From positions 62,001 to 126,000 of the forward strand of contig NZ_JACHNU010000005.1 of the NCBI RefSeq assembly GCF_014199525.1: a DNA stretch of 64,000 nucleotides. Reading direction: 5' to 3'. Of this stretch, positions 38,112-43,927 are shown piece by piece. The notes below the pieces were generated by a model that was not told where the DNA came from, made no database searches, and was given only the letters and a program-made list of their open reading frames with translations. How positions within the stretch are numbered: the first letter of the stretch is position 1; every line of letters begins with the position of its first letter. This stretch comes from Conexibacter arvalis. GTDB lineage: Bacteria > Actinomycetota > Thermoleophilia > Solirubrobacterales > Solirubrobacteraceae. The translations under genes and the position numbers were made by a program.

Positions 38112-38162
38112 GGAGGAGTGGCGCTCAGGGGGCGCATATCACCCCCAAGGCGCCGCTCCTCC
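38112..38162 (+). terminator. Large hairpin between acetolactate synthase and proA
   Basis: GGAGGAGTGGCGC pairs with GCGCCGCTCCTCC (one mismatch), and an inner GGGGG pairs with CCCCC over a 9-nt loop containing CATATC. This is one of the most stable hairpins in the window, 36 nt after the stop, and probably separates the two transcripts. Confidence 0.65.
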
Positions 38163-40560: not shown

Positions 40561-42060
40561 ATGGGGCGCAATCTTGCGAGCCTGCTGACCGACACCGCCG
40601 CGAAGCACGGGGACCGCATCGCCGTGAAGCTCGACGACGTGGCGCTGAACTACACGGTCATCGCAGAGGGCAGCGCGCGCATCGCGGGGCTCCTGCACGA
40701 GAAGGGCTTCCGGCCCGGCGACCGCGTCGGGCTGATGCTCCCCAACGTCCCCTTCTTCCCGCCGATCTACTACGCGATCCTGCGCGCCGGCGGGATCGTC
40801 GTGCCGATGAACGTGCTGCTCAAGCAGCGCGAGGTCGCCTACTACCTGCGCGACTCCGGCGCCAAGCTGCTGTTCGGCTGGCACGACTTCGCCGGCGAGG
40901 CGGCGCCAGGGGCGCAGGAGGCCGGCGCCGAGTTCATATCGGTCGGGCACGACTTCGCCCAGGTCGCCTTCGCCGCCGAGCCGCGCCACGAGATCGCCGA
41001 GGTCGGCGACGACGACGCGGCCGTGCTGCTCTACACCTCCGGCACGACCGGCCAGCCGAAGGGCGCCGAGCTGACCCACGCCAACCTGATCGCCAACGTC
41101 GAGACGACCGTCGACACGCTGATCCAGGTCGACCACGACGACGTGATCCTTGGCGCGCTGCCGCTCTTCCACTCCTTCGGCCAGACCTGCGCGATGAACG
41201 TCGCGACGGCGGTCGGGGCGACGCTGACCCTGATCCCGCGCTTCGACCCGCTGAAGGCGCTCCAGATCGTCGAGCGCGACAGGGTGACGGTCTTCGAGGG
41301 CGTCCCGACGATGTACAACGCGATGCTGGCCGTGCCGGAGGAGGCGCGCGCCGGCCTCGACCTGTCGTCGCTGAGGCTGTGCGTCTCGGGCGGCTCGGCG
41401 CTGCCCGGCGAGGTGCTGAAGGAGTTCGACGCGACCTTCGACTGCAAGATCCTCGAGGGCTACGGGCTGTCGGAGACCTCGCCGGTCGCCTCCTTCAACC
41501 ATCCCGACAGACCGCGCAAGGTCGGCTCGATCGGGACGGCGATCCGCGGCGTCGAGATGAGAGCGGTCGACGAGGACGGCGCCGAGGTGCCGACCGGCGA
41601 GGTCGGCGAGATCGTGATCCGCGGCCACAACGTGATGAAGGGCTACTGGGGCAAGCCGGAGGCGACCGACGCCGTCATGAGAGACGGCTGGTTCCACACC
41701 GGCGACCTCGCGAAGGTCGACGAGGAGGGCTACTTCTTCATCGTCGACCGCAAGAAGGACATGATCATCCGCGGCGGCTACAACGTCTACCCGCGCGAGG
41801 TCGAGGAGATCCTCTACGAGCATCCGTCGGTCGCCGAGGCGGCGGTGGTCGGCGTCCCCGACAGGGAGTGGGGCGAGGAGGTCGGCGCCTGCGTCGCGCT
41901 GAAGCCCGGCGAGCAGGTCGACCCCGACCAGCTGCGCGAGTACGTCAAGGAGCGGGTCGCCGCCTACAAGTACCCGCGCCACGTCTGGCTCGTCACCGAG
42001 CTGCCGAAGGGGCCGACCGGCAAGATCCTCAAGCGCGAGATCGAGGTGCCGGGCGCGTAG
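40561..42060 (+). CDS. Long-chain acyl-CoA synthetase (AMP-binding)
   Basis: 499 residues. Activates a carboxylic acid as acyl-AMP and transfers it to CoA. P-loop TSGTTGQPKGAELTH (about 157-171), GYGLSETSP (A5), GWFHTGDLAKVDEEGYFFI (A7), DRKKDMIIRGGYNVYPREVE (A8) and PTGKILKRE (A10 Lys). The compact N-terminus and A5 block fit medium/long-chain fatty acid ligases, but chain length is not determinable. It ends 13 bp before the first 47-bp hairpin repeat. Confidence 0.93.
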   Translation: MGRNLASLLTDTAAKHGDRIAVKLDDVALNYTVIAEGSARIAGLLHEKGFRPGDRVGLMLPNVPFFPPIYYAILRAGGIVVPMNVLLKQREVAYYLRDSGAKLLFGWHDFAGEAAPGAQEAGAEFISVGHDFAQVAFAAEPRHEIAEVGDDDAAVLLYTSGTTGQPKGAELTHANLIANVETTVDTLIQVDHDDVILGALPLFHSFGQTCAMNVATAVGATLTLIPRFDPLKALQIVERDRVTVFEGVPTMYNAMLAVPEEARAGLDLSSLRLCVSGGSALPGEVLKEFDATFDCKILEGYGLSETSPVASFNHPDRPRKVGSIGTAIRGVEMRAVDEDGAEVPTGEVGEIVIRGHNVMKGYWGKPEATDAVMRDGWFHTGDLAKVDEEGYFFIVDRKKDMIIRGGYNVYPREVEEILYEHPSVAEAAVVGVPDREWGEEVGACVALKPGEQVDPDQLREYVKERVAAYKYPRHVWLVTELPKGPTGKILKREIEVPGA

Positions 42061-42073
42061 GCGGCGTCGCGCG

Positions 42074-42120
42074 ATGAGGTGCGAGTTTCGGTCGCTCAGC
42101 GACCAGAGATCGCACCTCAT
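42074..42120. repeat. 47-bp double-hairpin repeat, copy A (contains DUF559 stop codon)
   Basis: Outer arms ATGAGGTGCGA (42074-42084) and TCGCACCTCAT (42110-42120) are perfect inverted copies. Inner arms GGTCGCT (42090-42096) and AGCGACC (42098-42104) close over a single C. Five-base unpaired spacers lie between outer and inner arms. The DUF559 stop codon (42117-42119, reverse strand) is bases 2-4 of the arm. The 11+5+7+1+7+5+11 layout is identical in copy B. Confidence 0.95.
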
Positions 42121-43004
42121 CGGCCGTCGAGCACCCGACGGAGCTGGGTTGCGACCGCTGCGGGGCGCTCGGCCACGTCGTGGTGGGTGAACCGGAGCAC
42201 CGTCCAGCCGGCAGCGGACAGCGCGTTCCCCTTCTCGCGGTCGCGCTGGAAGGCGCGTCGGTGGCGGTGGAACGCCCACCCGTCCAGCTCGACCGCGACC
42301 CGTTCGCGCGGCCAGACGGCGTCGACCTCGAAGCGCAGCACGCGGTGGTTGAGGCGCGGCCGCGGCAGGCCGGCCTCGGCGGTCAGGCCGAGGAAGCGCC
42401 GTTCCAAGGCGGACCGGTCCAGCTGGACCCCGTGGGCGGCATGTTCGGCGAGGACGGCGCGGAGGCGGGCGTGGCCGGGGCCGGTTCGCGTTCGCGTCCG
42501 CTCGATCGCCGCTTCGAGCGCATGGAGGTCGAGCAGCCGCCGGCGCTCTGCTTCCGCGAGGACGCTCGCCAGGCGGTCTTGGGAGAGGACGGCGGCAAGG
42601 TCGACCACGGTCCGGGGCAGGCTCGTGAGCGGGATGTCGTCCACCGTCGTCAGGTCGTCCGCGGTGAGTGCGGGCGCGCGGTGCACGCGGTAGGTCGAGG
42701 TGCTCTGGGCCCGGGTGGAGGTCGTCACGTCGATCCGGCCCCACCGAAGCGGCGCCAGCTCGTGCAGCCACGCCGCGCTGCGATGGCTCAGCGCCGCGCC
42801 GGGGCCGGCAGCCAGCACCGCGGCGAGCGCGTGCCCTTGCGGTGCGAGCCGCCGGTGCCCGACCACGTAGACGCCGCGGTGGAGGCGGGTCAGGGAGCCG
42901 CGGGCGAGCCGCGCCTTCACCATCGCCGGCGTGACGCCGACGGCCTCGAGCTGCCGCCGCGCCACCACACCCCACTGCGAATTCGCCAGTTCGACGAGGT
43001 CCAC
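42117..43004 (-). CDS. AbiEi-type HTH / DUF559 (Vsr-like, PD-(D/E)XK) nuclease-family protein
   Basis: 295 residues from GTG 43004, which puts the winged-HTH at the N-terminus (LVELANSQWGVVARRQLEAV, then LTRLHRGVYVVG), as in AbiEi-type antitoxin domains. The C-terminal DUF559 domain has the nuclease pattern: FEVDAVWPRERVAVELDGWA (D...E-x-D) and FQRDREKGNALSAAGWTVLR. A middle region (LTSLPRTVVDLAAVL) links them. No Shine-Dalgarno: copy B of the 47-bp hairpin ends 6 nt before the start, and copy A supplies the stop. An in-frame upstream GTG (43088) would translate through the hairpin and is less likely. Function is unproven; no AbiEii partner is adjacent. Confidence 0.85.
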   Translation of the reverse strand: MDLVELANSQWGVVARRQLEAVGVTPAMVKARLARGSLTRLHRGVYVVGHRRLAPQGHALAAVLAAGPGAALSHRSAAWLHELAPLRWGRIDVTTSTRAQSTSTYRVHRAPALTADDLTTVDDIPLTSLPRTVVDLAAVLSQDRLASVLAEAERRRLLDLHALEAAIERTRTRTGPGHARLRAVLAEHAAHGVQLDRSALERRFLGLTAEAGLPRPRLNHRVLRFEVDAVWPRERVAVELDGWAFHRHRRAFQRDREKGNALSAAGWTVLRFTHHDVAERPAAVATQLRRVLDGR

Positions 43005-43010
43005 GTCCGT

Positions 43011-43057
43011 ATGAGGTGCGACGTTTGGTCGCTGGGCGACCGGAAGTCGCACCTCAT
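43011..43057. repeat. 47-bp double-hairpin repeat, copy B (just upstream of DUF559 start)
   Basis: Outer arms ATGAGGTGCGA (43011-43021) and TCGCACCTCAT (43047-43057) equal those of copy A. Inner arms GGTCGCT (43027-43033) and GGCGACC (43035-43041) differ by one base from copy A. The five-base spacers differ freely. Conserved arms with variable spacers point to selection on the paired structure. It ends 6 nt from the DUF559 start codon. Confidence 0.95.
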
Positions 43058-43147
43058 GGGCGCGCTGGGAGTCGGGCGCGGCGGTCACCGGGCGAGGATG
43101 ACCGCCGGGCGTGTTGCGGCGCTACGCGTCTTCGCGCAGCGCCGCGC

Positions 43148-43666
43148 TCAGCCTCTGACGGCGATCGAGGGCGGGGCGCCGTTCTTGAAGAGGGTCGCGA
43201 TCAGGATCTCGATCTCGACCTTGCCGCGATTGGCGGCGTGGTGGATCGTGCCGGGCTTCTCGACGATCCAGTCGCCGGTGCGGATCTGGCCTCGCTGGCC
43301 GGCTCCGATCGTGCGCACGAGCTTGGCACCGGCGGCGGAGTCCGGGTCGCCGCGGCGGATCTCGACGGCGCCGCGGACGACCCAGTAGGTCAGCGTCCCT
43401 CGCGCGATCTGAGCGATCTGCGTCCCGGGGTGGCGGTGGAGCGCGAGCTCGGCGCCGGGCGCGACCGTCACGCGCGAGAGGCCGAGCGTCCGACCCTTCG
43501 CGCCGGCGGGGTCGCGGGTCTCCGCGAGGGCGGTGCGGACGACCGGCGCGGGCTCTGCGGTCGCGGCGCGCAGGGCGGTCGTCGCGACGGAGCCGCCGAC
43601 GGCGGCCAGCGCCAGGGCGGCGATCAGCAGCAGGGTGGCGCGCACGCGGCGCGGGTGCAGGGTCAC
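43148..43666 (-). CDS. Exported cupin-domain protein
   Basis: 172 residues from GTG 43666, with GGAGG 11 nt upstream. A signal peptide is clear: RRVRATLLLIAALALAAVGG, then an Ala-rich cleavage region. The mature part is a cupin: VAPGAELALHRHPGTQIAQI (motif 1, two His) and GDWIVEKPGTIHHAANRGKV (motif 2 with His). Probably binds a metal or small ligand outside the membrane. No partner is obvious. Confidence 0.75.
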   Translation of the reverse strand: MTLHPRRVRATLLLIAALALAAVGGSVATTALRAATAEPAPVVRTALAETRDPAGAKGRTLGLSRVTVAPGAELALHRHPGTQIAQIARGTLTYWVVRGAVEIRRGDPDSAAGAKLVRTIGAGQRGQIRTGDWIVEKPGTIHHAANRGKVEIEILIATLFKNGAPPSIAVRG

Positions 43667-43835
43667 GACGGTCTCGTCCTCCGGATCGGGTCGGTCTCTT
43701 CCCGCGTCATCGGCAGGACGGTCCGGGAACTGGACCGGCCGCCCGATGCAGGAGGGGCGGCCGGCGCCGGATCGGCCAGCGCCGGCGGCTTGGGCGGCGC
43801 CCGTGTGGCGGCGACGAGTGGGACCGGAGCGGCGA

Positions 43836-43907
43836 GCGCGGACGCGCACCCGGTGGGAGGCGCACCGCCGGGCGCGGACGCGCGCCCGGTGGGAGGCGCA
43901 CCGCCGG
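43836..43907. repeat. 36-bp direct repeat, two copies, before the Tim44-like gene
   Basis: 43836-43871 and 43872-43907 are the same 36-mer (begins GCGCGGACGCGCACCCGG) with one A/G difference, and a third partial start follows. It ends 20 bp before the ATG at 43928, i.e. in the likely leader or promoter. Confidence 0.85.
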
Positions 43908-43927
43908 GCGCGATACGGTGGAGTGAG

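Follow-up and report, generated by a model that had tools for sequence, protein, structure and literature searches.

The DNA analysed here, referred to as the window, is a stretch of 64,000 nucleotides from a contig of Conexibacter arvalis. It contains a gene for a predicted nuclease that is fitted between two short hairpin elements, and the features of this locus and its surroundings are as follows.

38112..38162, no strand assigned: solitary hairpin upstream of proA, of the gene 110 family (named for the DUF559 gene at G000:C4:313.5 kb)
40561..42060, plus strand: AMP-binding (acyl-CoA ligase type) gene, the left neighbour, at the end of a conserved proA-nadD-rsfS-ligase block
42074..42120, no strand assigned: 47-bp hairpin element at the 3′ end of the DUF559 gene, whose stop codon it overlaps
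42117..43004, minus strand: predicted AbiEi-fold plus DUF559 (Vsr/EDxHD-like nuclease) gene, GTG at 43004, TGA at 42119-42117, 295 amino acids, assigned from Pfam, PADLOC and predicted structure
43011..43057, no strand assigned: 5′ hairpin element, 6 bp upstream of the GTG
43148..43720, minus strand: cupin-domain gene, the right neighbour

A preliminary description of this DNA had reported two 47-bp elements with the same outer arms, one of them 6 bp from the GTG and the other with the TGA inside it, and all of this is present as described. The outer arms are 11 bp long, identical in both elements and separated by 25 bp, and the arm 11-mer occurs exactly four times in the window, with no further occurrence within one mismatch over its whole length. 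DNA folding of both elements yields z-scores of -7.3 to -7.9 on either strand. The layout that had been proposed for them (11/5/7/1/7/5/11, as arms, spacers and loop) stands as far as the arms are concerned, but the inner arm of the 43011 copy carries one mismatch (T/G), and the supposed spacers do not hold up as such. Because pairing in the family consensus continues through these ‘spacers’ too, the window element is a single 23-bp imperfect palindrome with a 1-nt loop. The accompanying claim that spacers vary under selection for structure is weak in the window’s own family, where the covariation score was matched by 26 of 500 shuffles, and fares better in the sister family of gene 110, where the score was reached by none of 500 shuffles (0.127 versus at most 0.071 in slid controls). 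The covariation of the 110-family spacers favours pairing at some stage, and part of it could also stem from relatedness of the copies or from imperfect palindromes being corrected by template switching. No T-run follows the hairpins in the flanks of window-family and 110-family copies, and a comparison with Rfam returned sub-threshold miRNA matches only, which were taken as chance.

GTG 43004 is a candidate start of the window gene and not a proven one, because a further in-frame GTG lies upstream at 43088 and an ORF from there would cross the hairpin. The protein matches AbiEi_4, DUF559 and MTES_1575 in Pfam and AbiEi in PADLOC (1.8e-31), and its predicted structure has a mean pLDDT of 86. 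In this model, residues 1-189 can be superimposed on the AbiEi antitoxin 6y8q (Z 12.9, rmsd 4.0, 176 aligned), and residues 198-295 on the homing endonuclease I-Bth0305I, 3r3p (Z 12.5, rmsd 2.1, 93 aligned) and on Vsr, 1cw0 (Z 10.6, rmsd 2.3, 99 aligned); a profile match to 3r3p was also obtained (E 6e-4). The modelled protein combines the fold of an AbiEi antitoxin with that of a Vsr/EDxHD homing endonuclease. Residues E201, D228, E239, D241, H246 and D255 are invariant in an alignment of seven sequences and may be the acidic and histidine residues expected of a Vsr/EDxHD-type site. Close relatives of the gene among named records come from Solirubrobacterales and Conexibacter MAGs. DUF559/AbiEi_4 matches number up to 14 per genome, and several DUF559/AbiEi copies are seemingly split or truncated in G100, G122, G182, G025 and G041, pointing to possible gain and decay of these genes.

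The window genome holds eight genes similar to the window protein (itself included), and all eight have a strong 5′ hairpin, the sequence of which is different for each. A wider sample was taken of 60 DUF559/AbiEi loci from the family, at about 9 kb each, in which the expected number of hairpins per zone (2.3) was derived from the flanking hairpin density. Against this expectation, 26 hairpins were found in 15 kb of gene-start zones (Poisson 9e-19) and 11 in 15 kb of gene-end zones (Poisson 3e-5), an enrichment of about 11-fold and about 5-fold, respectively, and the concentration at DUF559 genes becomes sharper under a stricter hairpin score. At least one hairpin is present in 31 of the 60 loci; the 29 that have none by the same method are mostly from genera other than that of the window. 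The gene-hairpin association is strong, and in this lineage of soil bacteria the genes are often flanked by two copies of a gene-specific hairpin about 35-50 bases long. The two ends of one gene resemble each other and not the hairpins of other genes: for six genes with hairpins at both ends, the true 5′-3′ pairing is the best of all 720 pairings, and matching hairpins at both ends are also seen, for example, at L282 in G191, which belongs to another family of the order. Hairpin similarity does not correlate with protein identity (Mantel r 0.02; 1188 of 3000 permutations as high), and the closest paralogue of the window protein in its genome, 66-68% identical, has an unrelated hairpin. A separate feature of the 60 loci (L105-L164) is the motif GGGGCGA, found at most 120 bp upstream of 20 of the genes versus about one expected, which may possibly be part of a promoter or operator.

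Families of unrelated hairpin sequence have a common layout with a median length of about 49 bp, in which an inner and an outer stem flank a zone of poorer pairing at 8-12 bp from the centre; since being a hairpin was a condition of the search, what is informative is their internal layout alone. An ATG lies near the apex of the 5′ hairpin in 11 genes. In all 11, such an ATG shares the reading frame of the conserved domain, where chance would give one in three, and the frame stays open up to that domain. Because the loop ATG is in frame in every case, translation of these 11 genes probably begins within the hairpin itself. No ATG is present in the hairpin loop of the window gene.

Hairpins of these families also occur away from DUF559 genes. 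The 5.2-Mb window genome contains 16 copies of the window hairpin within three mismatches (reversed control 0) and about 18 copies by covariance model, of which two flank the DUF559 gene and the rest are solitary, and the gene 110 hairpin is present in 20 copies, 18 of them away from the gene (controls 0). Among six congeners, no copy of the window hairpin was found within three mismatches, and the covariance model recovered a few diverged copies. Genome-wide counts of solitary copies cover four families, namely those of the window, of gene 110, of gene 145 in G014 and of L282 in G191; for the two counted outside the window genome, such copies are few (one in G014 and two weak ones in G191). 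The boundary of the repeat is the edge of the hairpin, the flanks of different copies are unrelated, and no target-site duplication was seen. By crude gene calls, 18 of 21 solitary copies lie outside genes, often directly behind a gene or between two that converge.

Clusters of at least two strong hairpins were sought in 1.6 Mb of the window genome, and nine were found, one of which is a low-complexity GC-rich group of 134 members. Seven of the other eight dispersed families either include a DUF559-gene hairpin or match one: five hold a copy at a DUF559 gene within the sampled DNA, and two were assigned by eye, from their sequence, to genes 121 (C7) and 113 (C1) outside the sample. The eighth consists of an identical 33-bp hairpin at G000:C3:54-86 and G000:C4:54-86, close to the ends of two contigs, where a repeat may have broken the assembly. 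Occurrence at many intergenic sites with no link to DUF559 genes had been named beforehand as an outcome that would speak against a joint unit of gene and hairpins. Many sites away from DUF559 genes were indeed found, which is not taken as a refutation because a dispersing element would produce them, and a link to the genes is present, because hairpin families and DUF559 genes correspond almost one-to-one in the sampled genome. The same genome also has an HNH_2 endonuclease gene (413675-414682, minus strand) between two direct repeats of about 80 bp at G000:C3:413597-414733 (L253:13597-14733); each repeat includes the same 43-bp hairpin, related to that of DUF559 gene 105, and from its sequence the arrangement looks like an insertion with duplication of the hairpin site.

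The proA-nadD-rsfS-ligase block was used as an anchor in searching for an allele that lacks the insertion. It is kept in six congeners, in all of which the hairpin-gene-hairpin unit is absent from this position; the comparison of loci for precise insertion, as suggested in the preliminary description, disclosed no exact junction and hence no precise empty site at the syntenic locus of the six. A clean empty site is missing because two of the congeners (G004 and G005) have a different gene of about 2 kb between ligase and cupin genes, and loss or replacement of the unit is possible there. The description had further held that DUF559 genes with no flanking hairpins, combined with a lack of empty-site alleles, would count against the unit, and what emerged is a mixture of loci devoid of hairpins (29/60), absence of the unit from the congeners and no precise junction. 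The 38112-38162 hairpin is likewise missing upstream of proA in the congeners, in intergenic DNA that does not align. No AbiEii toxin gene adjoins the window gene, its neighbours being the AMP-binding enzyme and the cupin protein.

The REP/RAYT systems (TnpA-REP, REPtron) consist of an enzyme gene with an adjoining palindrome, solitary extragenic copies of that palindrome, and a palindrome type that is specific to the gene (PMC3116915, PMC8266576). The present system is similar in that a palindrome adjoins an enzyme gene and further extragenic copies are present in the genome. It differs in that the predicted enzyme is AbiEi plus a Vsr-like nuclease and not an HUH transposase, that copies number about 20 versus hundreds, and that several gene/hairpin pairs are present per genome. 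No PF01797 match, as expected of a Y1/RAYT transposase, was found in the window genome, and inspection of the flanks of window-family and 110-family copies disclosed no common GTAG-type tetranucleotide 5′ of the palindrome. Lacking both HUH enzyme and GTAG tag, the system fails as a member of REP/RAYT, and the best reading is that of REP/RAYT-like logic with an unrelated enzyme.

The AbiEi of the S. agalactiae AbiE type IV toxin-antitoxin system binds its own promoter at 11-bp inverted repeats separated by N27, a site that can also be written as 23-bp arms with four mismatches and N3 (PMC3985639). Shared with the window locus are the AbiEi fold and 11-bp inverted repeats at the start of the gene itself, 25 bp apart here versus 27 bp; written in the second manner, the element here has 23-bp arms and N1. 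In contrast to AbiE, the nuclease here is fused, an adjoining AbiEii toxin gene is lacking, and the element also occurs at the 3′ end and in dispersed form. The likeness of 11-N25-11 to 11-N27-11, which was noticed post hoc and concerns one published case, may be the best clue to mechanism. The resemblance to the EDxHD homing endonuclease I-Bth0305I and to Vsr lies in the modelled fold of the catalytic domain, whereas here there is no intron or intein, the gene is hairpin-flanked and an N-terminal AbiEi module is present. Organellar double-hairpin elements and similar mobile palindromes are also small and dispersed, and differ in being organellar. We know of no cognate nuclease gene for each hairpin family among the organellar elements.

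That gene and hairpins form one mobile or self-regulating unit, as proposed in the preliminary description, is favoured because many DUF559/AbiEi genes are arranged in the same way with hairpins of different sequence, and is not helped by the lack of a precise empty site. We give even credence to a selfish, self-regulating unit in which AbiEi acts on the outer arms, the nuclease cuts, and repair or copying spreads the palindrome; binding, autoregulation, cutting and spreading or mobility are what we infer of it. Here, the N-terminal two thirds of the protein would be an AbiEi-type DNA-binding module with the conserved 11-bp outer arms as half-sites. By binding the hairpin over its own start, the protein would limit its own expression, and in related genes the start codon would even lie inside the hairpin loop. 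The C-terminal Vsr/EDxHD nuclease would then introduce cuts or nicks at cognate hairpins or close to them, and as the cut ends are repaired or copied, hairpins could arrive at new intergenic sites, and occasionally the whole hairpin-gene-hairpin unit likewise. The broader proposal, to which we lean with somewhat less than even confidence, is a new class of bacterial mobile element, independent of REP/RAYT, in which an AbiEi-guided Vsr/EDxHD nuclease, its translation often beginning within a double-hairpin palindrome specific to its gene, recognises that palindrome and disperses it through the genome as non-autonomous copies.

Regulation alone could be responsible for what is seen, with hairpins as AbiEi-type operators or mRNA hairpins through which the protein represses its own gene, solitary copies as a regulon or decaying relics, and a nuclease that serves in defence or repair. 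AbiEi is a known autorepressor that acts on inverted repeats of nearly the same geometry (PMC3985639), the 5′ hairpins cover the start codon, and the excess of GGGGCGA upstream of the genes would also be in keeping with regulation. However, matching 3′ copies and solitary copies between convergent genes are poor promoter sites, and 18-20 near-identical, sharp-edged copies require a spreading process, so this account is considered rather unlikely. Chances that are slimmer than one would grant to a serious contender attach to homing into pre-existing hairpins, whereby another agent disperses the hairpins and the DUF559 gene inserts into them, duplicating the hairpin in the manner of a free-standing homing endonuclease. 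The nuclease fold is closest to I-Bth0305I, and the HNH gene between identical hairpin-bearing direct repeats in the same genome is what target duplication would give, yet the DUF559 units have no duplicated flanks beyond the hairpins, and nearly every hairpin family has a DUF559 gene of its own, which is unexpected if hairpins spread independently.

It is quite improbable that an unrelated transposase mobilises the hairpins in trans with the DUF559 gene as a passenger. In other systems, the movement of small palindromes is attributed to HUH enzymes (PMC8266576), but PF01797, the one class surveyed, has no match in the window genome, and the gene-specific matching of both ends also speaks against a passenger. 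Ordinary terminators or chance palindromes beside genes, for which a GC-rich genome with many coding palindromes (such as the 134-member cluster) would offer ample material, can scarcely be entertained, as they are already contradicted by the counts and by the position, the matching ends, zero control matches, the fold z-scores and the absence of a T-run. The reading of gene and hairpins as one unit would tie each gene to its own palindrome family, and with this to a concrete substrate, and would suggest where dispersed hairpins come from in a family in which a RAYT-type transposase (PF01797) is lacking from 33 of 41 genomes. The gene-plus-palindrome strategy would gain another enzyme type, unrelated to the first, and a route is suggested by which a selfish element could arise when an antitoxin fold that binds DNA is combined with a nuclease of the homing type. 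A literature search that was without most subscription papers and all preprints found no paper on a link between DUF559 and hairpins, and the hairpin-flanked nuclease genes look like an undescribed selfish or self-regulating gene-plus-hairpin system.

Among minor observations, a compound palindrome of 89 bp, which is longer than the usual element, lies at the gene start immediately upstream of the DUF559 match at L162 (G036:C1:2.397 Mb). In the window itself, to the right of the cupin gene, positions 43845-43912 contain repeated GGTGGGAGGCGCACCGCCGGGCGCG units that make up a further palindrome.
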